From: Megasphaera sp. NM10
GTDB lineage: Bacteria > Bacillota > Negativicutes > Veillonellales > Megasphaeraceae
Length of the DNA stretch: 39,172 nucleotides
Direction of reading: 5' to 3'
Assembly (NCBI RefSeq): GCF_000417505.1
Contig: NZ_APHY01000060.1
Span: 1-39,172, forward strand
Made by a program: the position numbers and the translations under genes. Positions 18,613 through 30,221 of the stretch are shown piece by piece. Numbering within the stretch: position 1 is the stretch's first letter; every line of letters starts with the position of its first letter. The notes under the pieces were generated by a model, which searched no databases, had not been told where the DNA came from, and saw only the letters and a program-made list of their open reading frames with translations.

Positions 18613-18735
18613 ATGAAAAAATGGCAGGATAAGGAAGAATTCAAAAAGTTATTTACCGAGAAAGCTCACATCTTGTGGGAAAAAGATCTGCGGGACATGA
18701 CCTTGAATGAAGTCTATCAGACCATCGCTATATGA
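18613..18735 (+). pseudogene. glgP: N-terminal fragment of glycogen phosphorylase, out of frame with the rest
   Basis: A 40-codon reading frame that begins MKKWQDKEEFKKLF, with GAAGGGG about 12 nt upstream, and ends in TGA at 18733-18735. Its sequence is what one expects ahead of the phosphorylase core (helix with LNEVYQTIA running into Y-M-I-R-D). One missing T near 18728-18731 (GCTAT where GCTTAT would restore frame) separates it from the 773-residue part. The stop overlaps the next ATG as ATGA. It is either a sequencing/assembly error, a real mutation, or a coupled two-part gene. Restored, the protein would have 813 residues, normal for the family. Confidence 0.75.
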
Positions 18736-21053
18736 TCCGCGATCTGGTAAGTGAAGATTGGATCCGCACGAATGAAATCTATGCCGAACAGAAGGTTAAG
18801 CAAGTCTATTATTTCTCCATCGAATTCCTCATCGGCCGCCTCCTGGAATCGAATCTCCTGGGCATCGATATGGACGACATCTGTCGCCAGGGCCTGGAAG
18901 ACATGGGCTGGGACCTGAATAAGGTCATCCCGGCCGAACGCGATCCGGGCCTGGGGAATGGGGGACTGGGCCGGCTGGCTGCCTGCTTCATCGATTCCCT
19001 GGCAGCGCTGCAGCTGCCGGGCCATGGCAACAGCATCCGCTATCAGTACGGCTTGTTCAACCAGCGCATTGTCGACAACCAGCAGGTCGAACTGCCCGAT
19101 AACTGGCTGGTCAACGGCTATCCCTGGGAAGTCAAGAAAGTCGACAAAGCCGTCTATGTCCGCTTTGGCGGCAACGCCTACATGCGTCCTGACGAAGACG
19201 GCAACCTGGAATGTGTCCACGAAAAGTATTCGTCTGTCCGCGCCGTACCGTACGATGTGCCTATCATCGGCTACCACAACAATACGGTCAACACGCTGCG
19301 CCTGTGGCGGGCGGAATATTCGCGGGAACAGCTCTACCAGGAATTGTCCATCGGCGACCGGCGCCGGGCCTTCCGCTACAAGGACAGTGTCCAGCAGATT
19401 TCCCGTTTCCTCTATCCTGACGACAGCAATGAAGACGGCCGCCGCCTGCGCCTGATGCAGGAATACTTCTTCGTATCGGCCGGCCTCCAGAGCATCGTCC
19501 GCCATTATAAGAAGAAATATCACGAAAGCATCTATAAATTCGACCGCTATGTGGCCATCCACATCAACGACACCCATCCGGCCCTGGTCATCCCGGAACT
19601 GATGCGCATCCTCATGGATGAAGAAGGCATATCGTGGGATGCGGCCTGGAACATCACCGTCCGCACCGTGGCCTATACGAACCACACCATCCTGCCGGAA
19701 GCCATGGAAAAATGGTCTATCCCCATGTTCAAGGAACTGCTGCCGCGCATTTACCTCATCGTCGAAGAAATCAACAACCGCTGGCTCAAAGAAGTCCGCA
19801 GCCTCTATCCGGGCGATGAATCGAGAGCCCGCGACGTCGCCGTCCTCTGGGATGGCCAGGTCCACATGGCTCATCTGGCCGTCCTCGGCAGCCACAGCGT
19901 CAACGGCGTCGCCGAAATCCATTCGCAGATCCTCAAGGATTCGACGCTGCACCAGTTCTATACGTGCTTCCCGCACCGCTTCTCCAATAAGACCAACGGC
20001 ATTTCCCATCGCCGCTGGCTCATCGAAGCCAATCCGCAGCTGGCGTCGCTCATCGACGATACCATCGGTGACAGCTGGCGCCGGACGCCGTCAAAGCTCC
20101 AGGACCTCATGCCCTTTGCCGACGACCCGGCCTTCCAGGAACAGCTGACGCGGGTCAAAAAGGACCGCAAGGAAATCCTGGCCCGCTACATCCGCGACCG
20201 CTACGATACGGACGTGCGGACGGACTCGATCTTCGACATCCAGATCAAGCGCATCCACCTGTACAAGCGCCAGACCTTGAACATCCTGCACATCCTGCAC
20301 TTGTACTACCTCTTGAAGGACAACCCGAAACTCAAGATCACGCCGCGGACCTTCCTCTTTGGCGGCAAGGCCGCTGCCGGCTACGGCGAAGCCAAGGAAA
20401 CGATCCGCCTCATCAACGTCGTCGCCCATATGGTCAATTCCGACCGTAAGGTCAACAAGCAGATGAAGGTCCTGTTCCTGGAAAACTACAATGTTTCCTT
20501 AGGCCAGCTCCTCTTCCCGGCTGCTGACGTGAGCGAACAGATTTCGACAGCCGGCAAGGAAGCGTCGGGCACGGGCAACATGAAGTTCATGATGAACGGT
20601 GCCATCACCCTGGGGACCATGGACGGGGCCAACGTCGAAATCCACCGCAAGGTCGGCGACGAAAACTGCGTCATCTTCGGGCTGCGGGCTGACGAAGTCA
20701 TGAACTACTACATCCACGGCGGCTACTCGTCGTGGCAGATGTACAGCGACGCCGCCGCCATCCGCCGCCTCATGGATGCCCTCGTCGACGGCTCTATCGA
20801 CGGCTCTATCGGCGGGGACCACTTCGGTATGCTCTACTCGGCCTTCCTCGACCGGAACGACGAATACTTTGTCCTCAAGGACTTCCAGCCCTACTGCCAG
20901 GCCCAGCAGGAAATCGCCAAACGCTACGGCGACCATACGAAATGGTGTCATTCGAGCGTCGTCAACATCGCCCAGTCCGGCTACTTCTCCAGCGACCGGA
21001 CGATTCAGCAGTACGCCGATGACATTTGGCGCATCAAGCCGGTCAAACACTAA
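18732..21053 (+). CDS. glgP: Glycogen/starch/alpha-glucan phosphorylase (frame broken near N-terminus)
   Basis: PLP-dependent enzyme that releases glucose-1-phosphate from the non-reducing ends of glycogen. As read from ATG 18732 it has 773 residues and lacks the first 40, which lie in another frame (see 18613-18735). The catalytic core is intact: YFSIEFLIGR near residue 33, the ERDPGLGNGGLGRLAACFIDS block (parts DPGLGNGGLGR, LAACF), HINDTHPAL (near 277), RIHLYKRQTLN and EASGTGNMKFMMNG with the PLP lysine at residue 618, then TMDGANVEI. There is no good ribosome site of its own at 18732, so translation would rely on coupling through ATGA if the sequence is right. It is followed by glgB after 22 nt. 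Substrate may include maltodextrin as well as glycogen. Confidence 0.9.
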   Translation: MIRDLVSEDWIRTNEIYAEQKVKQVYYFSIEFLIGRLLESNLLGIDMDDICRQGLEDMGWDLNKVIPAERDPGLGNGGLGRLAACFIDSLAALQLPGHGNSIRYQYGLFNQRIVDNQQVELPDNWLVNGYPWEVKKVDKAVYVRFGGNAYMRPDEDGNLECVHEKYSSVRAVPYDVPIIGYHNNTVNTLRLWRAEYSREQLYQELSIGDRRRAFRYKDSVQQISRFLYPDDSNEDGRRLRLMQEYFFVSAGLQSIVRHYKKKYHESIYKFDRYVAIHINDTHPALVIPELMRILMDEEGISWDAAWNITVRTVAYTNHTILPEAMEKWSIPMFKELLPRIYLIVEEINNRWLKEVRSLYPGDESRARDVAVLWDGQVHMAHLAVLGSHSVNGVAEIHSQILKDSTLHQFYTCFPHRFSNKTNGISHRRWLIEANPQLASLIDDTIGDSWRRTPSKLQDLMPFADDPAFQEQLTRVKKDRKEILARYIRDRYDTDVRTDSIFDIQIKRIHLYKRQTLNILHILHLYYLLKDNPKLKITPRTFLFGGKAAAGYGEAKETIRLINVVAHMVNSDRKVNKQMKVLFLENYNVSLGQLLFPAADVSEQISTAGKEASGTGNMKFMMNGAITLGTMDGANVEIHRKVGDENCVIFGLRADEVMNYYIHGGYSSWQMYSDAAAIRRLMDALVDGSIDGSIGGDHFGMLYSAFLDRNDEYFVLKDFQPYCQAQQEIAKRYGDHTKWCHSSVVNIAQSGYFSSDRTIQQYADDIWRIKPVKH

Positions 21054-21075: not shown

Positions 21076-22986
21076 ATGAAACTCAGTGCAATCGACGAGT
21101 ACAGTACCTTCTTGTATCATCAGGGTACGAACTACGCCAGTTATCGTCTGTTCGGGGCCCATTTCACGGTCCTGCGCCGCAAGCCCTGCGTGCGCTTTGC
21201 CGTCTGGGCGCCTCACGCCCAGCAGGTCAGCGTCGTCGGTGATTTCAATCACTGGGACGCCGATGCCAATCCCATGGAGCGGAGCAGCTGCGGCAACGGC
21301 ATTTGGGTTATGCATATTGCCGGCCTCCAGGAAGGGGACATCTACAAGTACGCCATCACGACGGCGTCAGGCGAACGCATCTTAAAGAGCGATCCCTATG
21401 CCTTCTGGTCGGAAGTACGTCCCAATACGGCATCGAAACTGACCAAGCTCCACTACACGTGGCGCGACAAGAAATGGATGGACAGCCGCAGTGCTTACGA
21501 TTCGTACCGTAAGCCCATGCTGACCTACGAAGTCCATCTCGGCTCGTGGCGCCGCGGCGAAGACGGCGAAATGTTGTCGTACCGCGATATCGCGCCCCAG
21601 CTGGTCGATTATGTCAAACAGATGAATTATACCCACATCGAGCTCATGCCGCTGTGCGAATATCCCTTCGATGGTTCCTGGGGCTACCAGGGGACGGGGT
21701 ATTTCTCGGCGACCAGCCGCTATGGCAGCCCGGAAGACTTCATGTACCTCGTCGACCTCTGCCACCGCAACGGCATCGGCGTCATCCTCGACTGGGTACC
21801 GGGGCATTTTTGCCGCGACGCCCACGGCCTGCGCCATTTCGATGGCGAACCGTGCTATGAATCGGGCAACCCCATGCTGGCAGAAAACAAGGAATGGGAC
21901 ACGATGAATTTCGACTACGGCCGGACGGAAGTCCAGTCCTTCCTCATTTCCAGTGCCCTGTTCTGGATCAGCCAGTTCCACATCGACGGCCTGCGCATCG
22001 ACGCCGTCGCCAACATGCTCTATCTCGATTACGGCCATGCCGACGGCGACTGGCAGCCCAATAAGTACGGCGGCCGGGAAAACCTGGAAGCCATCGACTT
22101 CCTGCGCCATCTCAATACGGCCGTCTTCAAGGAATACCCTCAGGCCCTGATGATTGCCGAAGAATCGTCGGCCTGGCCTCTCGTGACCAAGCCCGTCGAC
22201 GTCGGCGGACTGGGATTCAATTACAAATGGAACATGGGATGGATGAACGATATGCTCCGCTACATGTCGCTGGACCCGCTGTTCCGCAAGGACAATCACA
22301 ACCTGATTACGTTTTCGTTATGCTATGCTTTTTCAGAAAACTTCATCCTGCCCTTGTCGCATGATGAAGTCGTCCACGGCAAACATTCCCTCCTGGACAA
22401 GATGCCTGGCGACTACTGGCAGAAATTCGCCGGCCTGCGCGCCTTTTACGGCTACTGGATGTCCCATCCGGGCAAGAAGCTTCTGTTCATGGGCAGCGAG
22501 TTCGGCCAGTTCATCGAATGGAAATACGATGACAGCCTGGACTGGCACCTCCTCAAGTATCCCATGCACAAGGCCATGCACGACTACGTGCGCAGCCTGA
22601 ATACGTACTATGTGGACCATCCGGAATTCTGGGAAGAAGACTGCGACTGGTCGGGCTTCTCGTGGATCAGCTGCGACGACTGCGACAACAGCGTCATCGC
22701 CTTTTACCGTACGGGTAAGGACGAAACGGACATGACCGTCGTCGTCTGCAACTTCACGCCGGTTGTCCGCCATTCGTACCGCTTCGGCGTCCCCCGGAAA
22801 GGGACGTACGTCGAAGTCTTCAACAGTGACGCCACGGCCTTCGGCGGCTCCAACGTCCTCAATGAAGGCGAATTCGAGGCCCAGGATGTGCCCATGCACG
22901 GCATGGACCAGTCCCTGGAACTGACCTTGCCGCCGCTGGCGACGATTTACCTGCAGCTGACAGGGAGTGTTAAAAAAAAGCAGTGA
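21076..22986 (+). CDS. glgB: 1,4-alpha-glucan branching enzyme
   Basis: GH13 branching enzyme of 636 residues that makes alpha-1,6 branch points in glycogen. An N-terminal CBM48-like domain (about 30-125; AVWAPHAQQVSVVGDFNHWD) precedes the barrel. Barrel motifs are ELMPLCEYPFDGSWGYQ (about 190-206), LDWVPGHF, GLRIDAVANM with nucleophile D309, IAEESSAW with acid/base E362 and LSHDEVVHGK with D430. The C-terminal all-beta domain ends in TLPPLATIYLQL. AGGAGG precedes the ATG. The length fits the shorter branching enzymes that lack the extra N1 module. The stop overlaps the start of a small basic gene (GTGA). Confidence 0.96.
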   Translation: MKLSAIDEYSTFLYHQGTNYASYRLFGAHFTVLRRKPCVRFAVWAPHAQQVSVVGDFNHWDADANPMERSSCGNGIWVMHIAGLQEGDIYKYAITTASGERILKSDPYAFWSEVRPNTASKLTKLHYTWRDKKWMDSRSAYDSYRKPMLTYEVHLGSWRRGEDGEMLSYRDIAPQLVDYVKQMNYTHIELMPLCEYPFDGSWGYQGTGYFSATSRYGSPEDFMYLVDLCHRNGIGVILDWVPGHFCRDAHGLRHFDGEPCYESGNPMLAENKEWDTMNFDYGRTEVQSFLISSALFWISQFHIDGLRIDAVANMLYLDYGHADGDWQPNKYGGRENLEAIDFLRHLNTAVFKEYPQALMIAEESSAWPLVTKPVDVGGLGFNYKWNMGWMNDMLRYMSLDPLFRKDNHNLITFSLCYAFSENFILPLSHDEVVHGKHSLLDKMPGDYWQKFAGLRAFYGYWMSHPGKKLLFMGSEFGQFIEWKYDDSLDWHLLKYPMHKAMHDYVRSLNTYYVDHPEFWEEDCDWSGFSWISCDDCDNSVIAFYRTGKDETDMTVVVCNFTPVVRHSYRFGVPRKGTYVEVFNSDATAFGGSNVLNEGEFEAQDVPMHGMDQSLELTLPPLATIYLQLTGSVKKKQ

Positions 22987-23183
22987 CCAAACCGCGGCGC
23001 CGCCGGACAGTGAAAGCCGATAAGTCTGCCGACGATACGGTAAAGAAAACGGCCAAGGCGCCGGGAAAGAAGGCGACGACCCGTGGAAAAGGGAAAGCCA
23101 AGACGGCAGCGTCTGAAAAGAAGACTGCTGCAACGAGAAAGAGAAGAACTGGGCGTCCTGCCAAAAAGGAAGCAGACGCCTGA
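22983..23183 (+). CDS. Small lysine/arginine-rich protein, histone H1-tail-like
   Basis: A 66-residue frame starting at GTG that overlaps the glgB stop by GTGA and ends 31 nt before glgA. Sixteen lysines and nine arginines make up about 38% of the residues; nearly all the rest are Ala, Thr, Pro, Gly and Asp. The pattern (KKTAKAPGKKATT, GKGKAKTAASEKK, TGRPAKK) resembles histone H1/HC1-type tails, and GRPAKK near the end resembles an AT-hook core. It would be disordered and bind nucleic acid or another polyanion. No dedicated ribosome site is visible, so translation would be coupled to glgB. Presence between glgB and glgA is unexpected. It could also be non-coding spacer with a chance frame, but low-complexity basic coding of this length without stops and with operon-like junctions favours a gene. 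Confidence 0.6.
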   Translation: MTKPRRRRTVKADKSADDTVKKTAKAPGKKATTRGKGKAKTAASEKKTAATRKRRTGRPAKKEADA

Positions 23184-23214: not shown

Positions 23215-24651
23215 ATGAATGTATTATTTGTGGCCTCAGAAGCAGTGCCATTTATCAAAACAGGCGGGCTGGCCGATGTCATGGGCGCACTGCCCAAGGC
23301 TTTAGCCAAGAAGGGCATGGACGTCCGCCTGGTCATTCCGAAATACAGCCGCATCGCTGAAGAAGCGAAGAAGCAGATGAAAGAAGTGACGACAGGCATC
23401 GTGAACCTGGTCTGGCGCCAGCTCTACTACGGTGTCGAAGAAATCAAGCAGGACGGCGTGACCGTCTATTTCATCGACAACGAATGGTATTTCAAGCGCG
23501 ACGGCCTCTACGGCTACGGCGATGACGACGAACGCTTCGCCTATTTCTGCCGCGCCGTCCTGACCATGCTGCCCAAGATCGGCTTCAAGCCGGACATCAT
23601 CCACTGCAACGACTGGCATACGGGCCTCATGGGCGTCTTCCTCAAAGAAGATTTCTGGCACGATGATTTCTACAAGGGAATCAAAGTCATCTATACCATT
23701 CACAACCTGAAATACCAGGGCATCTATCCGCCGTCGATCATGCGCGACATCATTGGCCTGCCGCAGGAACTCTTCGACAACGGCAGCCTGGAATGTGACG
23801 GCTGCGTGAACTACATGAAGTCGGGCATGGTCTACGCCGACCACATCACGACGGTCAGTCCGTCGTATGCCCAGGAAATCACCTATCCGTACTTTGGCGA
23901 AGGCCTGGATGGCTATATCCGCGACAATGGGGAAAAGGTGACGGGCATCATCAACGGCCTGGACATCGACGTCTACAATCCGGAAACGGACCCGTATATC
24001 AAGCGCCAGTATTCCGTCGCCAACGCCCGGGCTGGCAAGCGGGAAAATAAAGATGCCCTGCGGGCCGAACTGGGCCTGCGCATCAAGCGGGGCGTCCCCA
24101 TGATCGCCATGGTCACGCGCCTCGTCGAAGACAAGGGCCTGGACCTGGTCACGCGCATCATGGATGAACTCGTCGACGACGACGTCCAGCTGGTCCTGGT
24201 CGGGACGGGCGATGCCGGCTATGAAGAAGCCTTCCGCGAACTGGCCCGCCGCCATCCGACCAAGGTATCGGCGAACATCACCTTCAACGAAGCCCTGGCC
24301 CACAAGGTCTACGCCGCTGCCGACATGTTCCTCATGCCGTCGCGGTACGAACCGTGCGGCCTGAGCCAGCTCATCGCCCTGCGCTACGGCGCCATTCCCA
24401 TCGTCCGCGAAACGGGCGGCCTCAAGGATACGGTCCATCCCTTCGATAAATACAGCAAACAGGGCAGTGGCCTGACCTTCCCGAACTTCAACGCCCACGA
24501 ACTGCTGTTCACGACGAAACGGGCCATGGGTTACTATGAAGACACGGCCCTGTGGGATATCCTCGTCCGCAACGCCATGACCAGCGACTACAGCTGGGAC
24601 CGCTCGGCCGAAGCCTACCAGAACCTGTACGAAAAAGTATTACAACAATAA
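23215..24651 (+). CDS. glgA: Glycogen synthase (ADP-glucose)
   Basis: GT5 glucosyltransferase of 478 residues that extends alpha-1,4-glucan chains from ADP-glucose. I start it at ATG 23215 (MNVLFVASEAVPF) rather than at the upstream in-frame ATG 23083, because family members begin here and GGGGGA lies about 8 nt upstream. K15-T-G-G-L-A-D is the KxGGL ADP-glucose motif. PDIIHCNDWHTGL (about 128-140), YTIHNLKYQG (about 160-169) and TVSPSYAQEI (about 215-224) are GT5 landmarks. In the C-terminal half, RLVEDKGLDL (about 301-310), the nucleotide-binding MPSRYEPCGLSQLIALRYG region (parts RYEPCGLSQ, ALRYG) and TGGLKDTV complete the active site. It is the last gene of the glg run before the repeat-terminator region. 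Confidence 0.96.
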   Translation: MNVLFVASEAVPFIKTGGLADVMGALPKALAKKGMDVRLVIPKYSRIAEEAKKQMKEVTTGIVNLVWRQLYYGVEEIKQDGVTVYFIDNEWYFKRDGLYGYGDDDERFAYFCRAVLTMLPKIGFKPDIIHCNDWHTGLMGVFLKEDFWHDDFYKGIKVIYTIHNLKYQGIYPPSIMRDIIGLPQELFDNGSLECDGCVNYMKSGMVYADHITTVSPSYAQEITYPYFGEGLDGYIRDNGEKVTGIINGLDIDVYNPETDPYIKRQYSVANARAGKRENKDALRAELGLRIKRGVPMIAMVTRLVEDKGLDLVTRIMDELVDDDVQLVLVGTGDAGYEEAFRELARRHPTKVSANITFNEALAHKVYAAADMFLMPSRYEPCGLSQLIALRYGAIPIVRETGGLKDTVHPFDKYSKQGSGLTFPNFNAHELLFTTKRAMGYYEDTALWDILVRNAMTSDYSWDRSAEAYQNLYEKVLQQ

Positions 24652-28559: not shown

Positions 28560-30221
28560 GTGTATATTACTTACATGCGTATTCAAAATTACCGGAATCT
28601 ACAAGACGTCGAAATGACTTTCCACGAAAGGGCCAACTACATCGTCGGTGAAAACGCCATTGGCAAGAGCGGCCTGCTGCGCCTCATTTCCTACATGAGT
28701 GCCGGCCGCAATGTCGAAGAAGACGACTACGCCGACGTGACCCGGCCCATCATCATCACCTTAGACCTGCACCTGCTCCAGAGCGAGAAGGAGTATTTCG
28801 CCGATACGCCGGGCGAGCACCGTCAGAGCCTGCGCGTCCGCATGGAAATGCATGTCAGCGACATGTATCCCCATCTCTACGACGACAACAGCGGCGAAGA
28901 ACTGCCGTTAGAACTCATCCGCCGCCTGCGCTACGTGTCCTATTCGGCGGCCATGCCGGAAGAACAGCGCGTGCCGCCGCGTATTTACCGCGCCCTGGAA
29001 CAGAAGCTCTCCCAATGGAGCGAAGCTCACTGGGACGGCCTGTCGGAAGAAGCCAAGGCCTTCATCCATCACGAAGTCGCCGTCGGCAGCCTCGATTCAT
29101 CGTATTTCGTCAACATCTTCCTCTTGTCCCGCATGCTCTGCCGCATGGACCGGCCCAGGGCGGACAACATGAAATTCATTTCCCTGGCCGCCCTGTGCGT
29201 CATCACCCAGGTCTACATGATGTCCATCAGCCGCGCTGTACCGTTGGAACACAACGTCATCGTCGACGAAGAAGGGAAGCGCTACCTGCCCCTCATCATC
29301 TCCATCGATGAACCGGAAATGCACCTCCATCCCTACATGCAGCGCTCGGTCCTGCATTATTACCAGCAGCTCCTGAACAATGAAGACCCGCAGTTCTGTG
29401 CGCTCCTCAAGGACCTTTTCAACCTCGACGGCCTGCGGGGGCAGTTATTCGTCGTCACCCACTCGACGGATTCCCTCATCGACGACTACCGCCACATCAT
29501 CCGCCTGTACCGCAACAAGCAGGGCCTGGTCAAAGCGGCCTGCGGGGCTGGCTTCCACTTCAGCGAAGAAATCGAAAAACACCTGATCATGCACTTCCCG
29601 GAAGTCAAGGAAGCCCTCTATTCGCGGAGCGTCCTCATCGTCGAAGGGGAAACGGAATACGGCTGTTTCCAGCACTTCGCCAAGACTCTGGACCTGCCCT
29701 TCGACTACTACGGCATCTGCCTCATCAATGCCCGCGGCGAAAGTTCCATCTCCAAGATCAAGAAACTCCTGGAATACTTCAAGATTCCCGTCGTCGCCCT
29801 CTACGATGCCGACGTCAAGGGCAGCCACAAAGGCAAACGGGGCGTCTACTTCACCAACGAAATCTGCTTTGAAATGGACCTGGCCAAGACCATGATCGAC
29901 CACGGCCAGCGCCGCGACCTGGACCGCATCATCAACACGGCCTGCGGCGAACACGCCCGGGCCACGACGGACATGATCAAAAAGGCCTGCCGCAAACTGG
30001 ACGTCAACTTCCACGATTACCCGGCTCGCCTCTTGTGGCACGTCAACCCGCGTAATAAAAAGGCCCTGTACATCTATTACTTCGCCTGGCTCTACAGCAA
30101 CAAAGGCGTCATCCTCGGCCGCCTCATCGGCCAGTCCCTGAAAAAAGAAGACATCCCGCCGGCCTTCGTCCAAGCCATTGAAGCCGCCGGCCAGCTGGCC
30201 AAAGTCACCAAAGCCGTGTAA
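28560..30221 (+). CDS. OLD family ATPase/TOPRIM nuclease
   Basis: Predicted 553-residue ATP-dependent endonuclease of the overcoming-lysogenisation-defect (OLD) type. The GTG start at 28560 has AAAAGGA about 9 nt upstream; an ATG five codons in is less well placed. The N-terminal ABC/SMC-like ATPase shows Walker A G30-ENAIGK-S37, Walker B-like IISIDEPEMHLHP with D250/E251 and an H-loop VVTHS with H301. The C-terminal TOPRIM domain has LIVEGETE with E362 and DAD at 416-418, the metal-binding acidic residues for cleavage. OLD enzymes include P2 Old and the GajA half of Gabija, both tied to phage defence. No UvrD-like GajB gene is next door, so this is a solitary (class 1-like) member. A defence role is inferred; repair is also possible. 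Its stop lies in a perfect hairpin (30201-30237). Confidence 0.88.
   Translation: MYITYMRIQNYRNLQDVEMTFHERANYIVGENAIGKSGLLRLISYMSAGRNVEEDDYADVTRPIIITLDLHLLQSEKEYFADTPGEHRQSLRVRMEMHVSDMYPHLYDDNSGEELPLELIRRLRYVSYSAAMPEEQRVPPRIYRALEQKLSQWSEAHWDGLSEEAKAFIHHEVAVGSLDSSYFVNIFLLSRMLCRMDRPRADNMKFISLAALCVITQVYMMSISRAVPLEHNVIVDEEGKRYLPLIISIDEPEMHLHPYMQRSVLHYYQQLLNNEDPQFCALLKDLFNLDGLRGQLFVVTHSTDSLIDDYRHIIRLYRNKQGLVKAACGAGFHFSEEIEKHLIMHFPEVKEALYSRSVLIVEGETEYGCFQHFAKTLDLPFDYYGICLINARGESSISKIKKLLEYFKIPVVALYDADVKGSHKGKRGVYFTNEICFEMDLAKTMIDHGQRRDLDRIINTACGEHARATTDMIKKACRKLDVNFHDYPARLLWHVNPRNKKALYIYYFAWLYSNKGVILGRLIGQSLKKEDIPPAFVQAIEAAGQLAKVTKAV

Follow-up and report, generated by a model that had tools for sequence, protein, structure and literature searches.

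A histone H1-like C-terminal tail of the Megasphaera branching enzyme GlgB, probably split by an assembly error, as a possible glycogen-nucleic acid tether

The glycogen gene cluster of Megasphaera sp. NM10

The window, meaning the whole stretch of DNA that was analyzed, comprises 39,172 nucleotides of Megasphaera sp. NM10 (assembly GCF_000417505.1, contig NZ_APHY01000060.1, positions 1 to 39,172 of the forward strand); the assembly is labeled G000 below, and G002 is the closest relative found. The window carries a glycogen gene cluster in the order glgC, glgD, glgP, glgB, and glgA, followed by a gene for a GlgX/4-alpha-glucanotransferase-like protein (NCBIfam). The features of concern here are the following.

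18613..21053, plus strand: glgP; the start listed at 18732 is an artefact, and the NCBIfam phosphorylase match begins at profile position 36
21076..22986, plus strand: glgB, 636 aa as it stands in the window; a 1,4-alpha-glucan branching enzyme with a CBM48, a GH13 catalytic domain, and an alpha-amylase C domain (NCBIfam and Pfam)
22972..22979, plus strand: A8 run at the junction (A9 in loci L002, L006, L007, and L008); the absent base shifts the tail out of frame
22983..23183, plus strand: reported 66-codon frame plus stop, read here as the C-terminal H1-like tail of GlgB, equivalent to residues 637 to 702 of the 702-aa G002 GlgB
23142..23168, plus strand: RRTGRPAKK (RRPGRPAKK in G002), degenerate AT-hook-like tail end with no Pfam AT_hook match
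23215..24651, plus strand: glgA, 478 aa (NCBIfam GlgA), without a tail in the window

The reported frame opens with a GTG at 22983 that overlaps the TGA stop of glgB (22984-22986) and closes with a stop codon at 23181-23183, 31 nt before the ATG of glgA at 23215; the C-terminal end of its product is RRTGRPAKKEADA. Counted by eye, 25 of its 66 residues (38%) are K or R. An initial annotation of this DNA had described the stretch as a basic, H1-tail-like protein within the glycogen cluster, and its placement between glgB and glgA, the overlapping GTG start, and its basic composition are all borne out, as is its disordered appearance, which is also predicted for it as part of the G002 GlgB. On reading the sequence upstream of the GTG, no Shine-Dalgarno-like site was seen at normal spacing, the nearest candidate being AGGGAG at 22962-22967, about 15 nt away. 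The sequence is compatible with translation of the 66-codon frame that may be coupled to translation of glgB. Elsewhere in the window, NCBIfam gave no match at E 1e-20 for a 553-aa frame (28560-30221) that is flanked by the glg cluster on one side and a gene for DNA topoisomerase III on the other.

The reported frame as the probable C terminus of GlgB

The window GlgB scores over the cut-off of the NCBIfam GlgB equivalog family, and its body matches GH13 GlgB over the whole length. A search of the genus with GlgB gave a match in 10 of 15 genomes, including the window's own. The GlgB of G002 (locus L002) is 98% identical to that of the window, and its open frame runs to 702 residues, the last 66 of which match the reported frame; the poly-A run at the junction is A9 in G002 versus A8 in the window. 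Because G002 has this stretch as an in-frame part of its GlgB, the 66-codon frame is very unlikely to encode a separate protein, and we regard it as almost certainly the C-terminal tail of GlgB. The small-protein claim of the initial annotation therefore falls, and the frame is of value for having drawn attention to the H1-like tails of glycogen enzymes.

The initial annotation had proposed looking for the frame in related genomes, and the answer was divided. A basic tail is fused in frame to GlgB in six of the nine other GlgB-bearing genomes of the genus (L002 and L006-L010), with lengths of 45 to 98 residues in L006-L010, and no free ORF of this kind was found in other members of the genus. 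In the remaining three (L003-L005), which are the next-closest relatives at 91-92% identity, GlgB ends in a short acidic stretch and has no basic tail; in the sister genus (L011 and L012) and the related record L013, it ends in 12 unremarkable residues, likewise without a basic tail. The tail is therefore dispensable.

Two further observations were made during this comparison. An Arg-rich frame lies about 140 nt before glgA in L003-L005 and is open into glgA in all three (in L005 on the reverse complement), and it was considered as an N-terminal extension of GlgA. It was rejected, as its dN/dS of 0.83-1.92 and its even spread of changes over codon positions indicate no constraint. The five genomes of the genus (g1) with no GlgB match (G003, G005, G007, G008, and G011) are all 1.6-1.9 Mb in size, which suggests a loss of glycogen synthesis in these small genomes.

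A missing base and constraint on the tail

Sampled stretches of G000 and G002 were compared, and ORFs were counted if they were covered at 85% or more. Nine of the 103 testable G002 ORFs, glgB among them, are broken into two frames in G000. In the reverse direction, 4 of 99 G000 ORFs are broken in G002; two of these four sites coincide with breaks of the first count. Eight of the nine G000 breaks were inspected base by base (the exception is L133:5949-6611), and one of the nine, which lies in an ORF of 401 aa, is a gained rather than a lost base. An alignment over 68 kb gave 30 frame-changing gaps in coding frames, many of which are alignment noise, and the ORF-split comparison was relied on instead. 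The genes rpsL and rpoC of G000 (L123, contig C11, 11971-17195) have each suffered a clean one-base loss, and G000 has no copy of either gene other than the broken one. A bacterium in which both rpsL and rpoC are broken is not expected to live. Within the window, glgP lacks one base near 18728 relative to G002, and the N terminus from the ATG at 18613 is lost; this missing base is what makes the start listed at 18732 an artefact.

Because G000 carries these other single-base indels, the missing A at the glgB junction is most simply an error as well, and the A9 run would be an obvious place for one. We consider it very probable that glgB was split by a one-base deletion in the A9 run during sequencing or assembly. 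The reported 66-codon gene call is spurious and is corrected here, and users of the G000 assembly should be warned that it has frame-breaking errors in essential genes.

The initial annotation had also proposed a check for purifying selection, for which the window was compared with G002. The dN/dS ratio is 0.28 in the frame of the tail versus 4.4 and 0.8 in its other frames and 0.036 in the GlgB body; there is coding constraint, but the tail has a dN/dS about eight times that of the body. There are 7.5 synonymous and 6.5 nonsynonymous changes in the tail, distributed by codon position as 3, 3, and 8, and the contrast between the two classes is modest (Fisher p of 0.011 or 0.055, depending on the rounding of half counts). 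The composition of tails was also compared with that of bodies for the 45 of 65 distinct tails that had enough body sequence. Tail GC3 tracks body GC3 (rho of 0.74), whereas K+R content does not (rho of -0.07 against body GC3), with p-values that ignore kinship. Such a pattern would be expected if charge rather than letters is being kept.

An open frame with codon constraint could also mean that the split is real, with the stretch encoding either a separate small protein or an optional part of GlgB, present or absent according to slippage or frameshifting at the A run, and the recurrence of the junction A run in L002, L006, L007, and L008 is in keeping with this. However, errors of the same kind lie in essential single-copy genes of G000, the other members of the genus offer no free counterpart, and the GTG has no ribosome-binding-like site at normal spacing. 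Programmed slippage was rejected for the A run in particular, as the run is no longer than expected: in six tails, 9-77% of synonymous-codon shuffles reach its length. We therefore give a real split hardly any weight.

Distribution of basic tails on GlgB

A basic tail was defined as a 30-residue stretch within the last 60 residues that has at least 30% K+R, few hydrophobic residues, and a clear net charge. By this definition, H1-like tails are present on 37 of 92 GlgB loci (12 genus and family matches and 80 best contig-search matches, including near-duplicates such as L011-L013), whereas among the remaining ORFs of these loci that reach 150 aa, 5 of 471 have one. The preference holds within the Negativicutes (14/29 GlgB versus 4/98 other ORFs) and in the rest (23/63 versus 1/373). 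Over nine threshold settings the Fisher p ranged from 1e-14 to 3e-27 for the full set and for the non-Negativicutes and from 4e-9 to 5e-6 for the Negativicutes. The definition is also selective in larger samples of genomes. Only 2 of 469 ORFs pass it in 550 kb of G002 (about 22% of the genome), one of them being GlgB, and 6 of 324 pass in 400 kb of the Selenomonas-like G183 (about 17% of the genome), one of them again GlgB (798 aa) and the other five judged by eye to be arginine-rich or chance frames.

Across the class, 286 of 380 genomes have a GlgB match, and among the matches listed, frames of family f24 reach 898 residues. A further set of 58 GlgB loci (18 automatic best matches and 40 picked by hand, mostly one to three per genus and some for their long frames) has basic tails in 30, with charges of up to +39; several of the 58 duplicate members of the first set (L152 is L014, L162 is L015, and L181 is L017, among others). 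Tail-bearing GlgB proteins occur in many Negativicutes and in Clostridia such as Ruminococcus. The tails are rich in lysine, alanine, and threonine and range from 33 to 269 residues among tailed loci.

On a tree of 110 GlgB rows, in which the row of the window was set to "tail," the label requires a minimum of 13 changes, 8 or more of which are forced by well-supported branches, versus 36 changes in shuffles. The tail is clustered on the tree, yet it has been gained or lost repeatedly. This repeated change, the wide variation in length, and the existence of close relatives without a tail could be taken to mean that the tail is a tolerated, functionless low-complexity extension that comes and goes by repeat slippage. 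We rate this as quite improbable in view of the strong preference for GlgB over neighboring genes, the clustering on the tree, the independence of K+R content from GC3, and the separate occurrence of a tail on GlgA.

Composition, motifs, and predicted disorder

The 65 distinct tails consist of 24% K, 20% A, 12% T, 9% E, and 6% R. The motif [TAP]AKK occurs in 33 of them against a shuffle mean of 18. The AT-hook-like pattern [KR]RGRP.?[KR] occurs in five, all of them GlgB tails of family f24, whereas the mean in 2,000 shuffles is 0.01 and none of the 2,000 reaches five. A Pfam scan of the window and G002 tails gave no match to HC2 (PF07382, the chlamydial H1-like family) or AT_hook (PF02178), and no Pfam family reached its cut-off in any of the tails scanned, a set that left out the 205-residue tail of L196. 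Weak likeness below the cut-off was seen in two relatives, L166 and L179, which score 19.6 and 17.0 bits against HC2 (cut-off of 40), and L166 scores 12.3 against AT_hook (cut-off of 17.4). Formal membership in either family was therefore rejected: RRTGRPAKK of the window lacks both a canonical RGRP core and a Pfam match, the best relative for the AT hook falls under the cut-off, and the two best relatives for the H1-like nucleoproteins are far under theirs.

In an AlphaFold model of the G002 GlgB the body is confident and residues 637-702 have a pLDDT below 50, a value lowered in part because the other rows of the alignment mostly have no residues in the tail. The tail is accordingly predicted to be disordered. 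The solved structures that match GlgB represent 25 distinct sequences, none of which matches beyond query residue 631, so that this search gave no solved counterpart of the tail at 637-702.

Since GlgB bodies are acidic, the tail might simply balance charge. More broadly, it could work on proteins, either by offsetting the acidic body of GlgB or by holding GlgB together with other acidic glycogen enzymes. In eight members of the genus and family, the computed body charge is -21 to -32 (-28 in G002), and the four of these that are tailed have tail charges of +11 to +24. However, the bodies of tail-less relatives are equally acidic at -24 to -32, and in other genera tails attain a charge of +39 and a length of 260 residues, which is more than balancing would call for. 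A protein-directed role is, in our judgment, improbable.

Basic tails on glycogen synthase

Two of the five non-GlgB control ORFs that carry a basic tail are glycogen synthases of Succiniclasticum. Basic tails are present on 3 of 55 complete GlgA proteins from the contig-search loci, on 8 of 9 later ones from relatives, and on 0 of 1 in G183, a total of 11 of 65 in which L015 and L231 are the same sequence. GlgB and GlgA can thus both be tailed, and a basic, partly AT-hook-like tail therefore occurs on two different glycogen-building enzymes. The tailed Succiniclasticum-like copies are as follows.

L014 7028-9028, L029 1642-3714, L224-L226, and L228-L230: Succiniclasticum-like GlgA with a tail of about 160-230 residues

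These tails are ordered as an acidic block, an H1-like block, and a conserved AT-hook-like KKRGRKPG end; they are near neutral overall because the acidic block precedes the basic one. The end reads KKRGRKPG(S/T)K or similar in eight of the nine complete Succiniclasticum-like copies (KKRGRKPGTKI in one) and is missing from L231; one further copy, cut off by the end of its contig, falls outside this count. The AT-hook-like motifs in the GlgB and GlgA tails of some relatives are no more than suggestive of DNA binding.

A possible tether between glycogen and nucleic acid

The body of GlgB can be assumed to be bound to the storage polymer, given the known activity of the enzyme on glycogen and its CBM48 domain. 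The intact Megasphaera protein of about 702 aa would thus join a glycogen-acting body to a tail, disordered and about 66-74 residues long, that carries a net charge of about +24. We propose that the body is seated on the glycogen particle as it grows and that the tail binds nucleic acid without sequence specificity, most likely the DNA of the nucleoid. The cationic tail would then form a bridge from the surface of the glycogen to the nucleoid, or else to RNA, and counter the piling up of glycogen at a pole, such that glycogen would be distributed along the nucleoid and passed to both daughter cells at division rather than coalescing at one end of the cell. The guess of the initial annotation at a polyanion-binding or nucleoid role was a reasonable one. 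For the explanation as a whole, that is, a GlgB tail that was split by an assembly error and that acts as a glycogen-nucleic acid tether, we estimate a probability of roughly 0.42. That tailed GlgB ties glycogen to DNA specifically, which we argue by analogy, is possible but somewhat short of an even bet.

The analogy is with proteins of other storage polymers. PhaF of Pseudomonas putida and PhaM of Cupriavidus necator are described in part of PMC13052382 as tethers between PHB granules and the nucleoid, in which a lysine-rich, histone-like C-terminal region binds DNA nonspecifically. Tailed GlgB resembles them as a storage-polymer protein with such a C-terminal region. PhaF and PhaM differ in being granule-associated proteins of PHB/PHA, whereas GlgB is a branching enzyme for which DNA binding is only proposed here, and the GlgB tails of the genus lack a long KPAA array. 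A yardstick for PhaF based on the phasin family PF05597 was tried and set aside: G000 gave no match, and controls matched in only 2 of 14 genomes, one of them over the cut-off. In Pseudomonas aeruginosa, AlgP has an H1-like, disordered C-terminal domain that is needed for the spacing of polyphosphate granules (from part of PMC9239181). The likeness to tailed GlgB lies in that domain. AlgP differs in the length of the domain (195 aa), in its 25 perfect KPAA repeats, in its alpha-helical N-terminal domain, and in its polymer, which is polyphosphate and not glycogen. The composition of the 65 tails and the low pLDDT nevertheless give the disordered, Lys/Ala-rich, H1-like C-terminal tail that marks tethers of the PhaF, PhaM, and AlgP type. 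Glycogen has 0 mentions in the searched text of PMC13052382 and of PMC9239181.

The polyanion bound by the tail might instead be ribosomes or other RNA, or polyphosphate, in which case tailed GlgB would act at the border between glycogen condensates and ribosome-rich cytoplasm. Tails rich in Lys, Ala, and Thr are general polyanion binders. AlgP, with its H1-like tail, sits on polyphosphate granules according to part of PMC9239181, and glycogen demixes from a ribosome-rich phase in crowded extracts (work cited in the portion of PMC12706056 consulted here). However, the AT-hook-like motifs in some GlgB tails and the end of the Succiniclasticum-like GlgA point to DNA, in some lineages only, and we regard RNA or polyphosphate as an unlikely target, though one to be taken seriously. 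For a tether of glycogen to nucleic acid in general, the sequences also hold features that would count against it: relatives do without the tail, the tail evolves faster than the body, no curated DNA-binding family is reached by any tail scanned, the AT-hook-like pattern of GlgB is limited to f24 among the tails sampled, and the Succiniclasticum-like GlgA tails have almost no net charge.

The glycogen condensates of Escherichia coli arise where DNA is absent, and they accumulate at the old pole, pushing the nucleoid (PMC12706056). We more tentatively suggest that the H1-like or AT-hook-bearing tails of GlgB, and in some lineages of GlgA, could be a repeatedly evolved third class of storage polymer-to-nucleoid tether, after those for PHB and polyphosphate, that is built into the biosynthetic enzymes themselves. 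Glycogen of the Negativicutes and of Ruminococcus-like Clostridia might then lie on the nucleoid and be inherited evenly, unlike the polar, DNA-excluded condensates of E. coli. If true, this would provide a nucleoid-attachment mechanism for bacterial glycogen. A literature search of titles and abstract openings, in which subscription papers are thinly covered, gave no report of such a tail on GlgB or GlgA, and the opening 300,000 characters of a review of alpha-glucan enzymes in Chem Rev do not contain "histone," "disordered," or "nucleoid." PMC10395257 names Megasphaera elsdenii, Selenomonas ruminantium, and Ruminococcus albus as bacteria that store glycogen, and on that basis a comparison of tailed with tail-less GlgB is feasible in glycogen-producing cells.

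A different kind of C terminus was seen on the GlgB of two Ruminococcus metagenome-assembled genomes (L088 and L068), which carry very long mixed acidic and basic repeats, with EEVKAAPKAE in L088.
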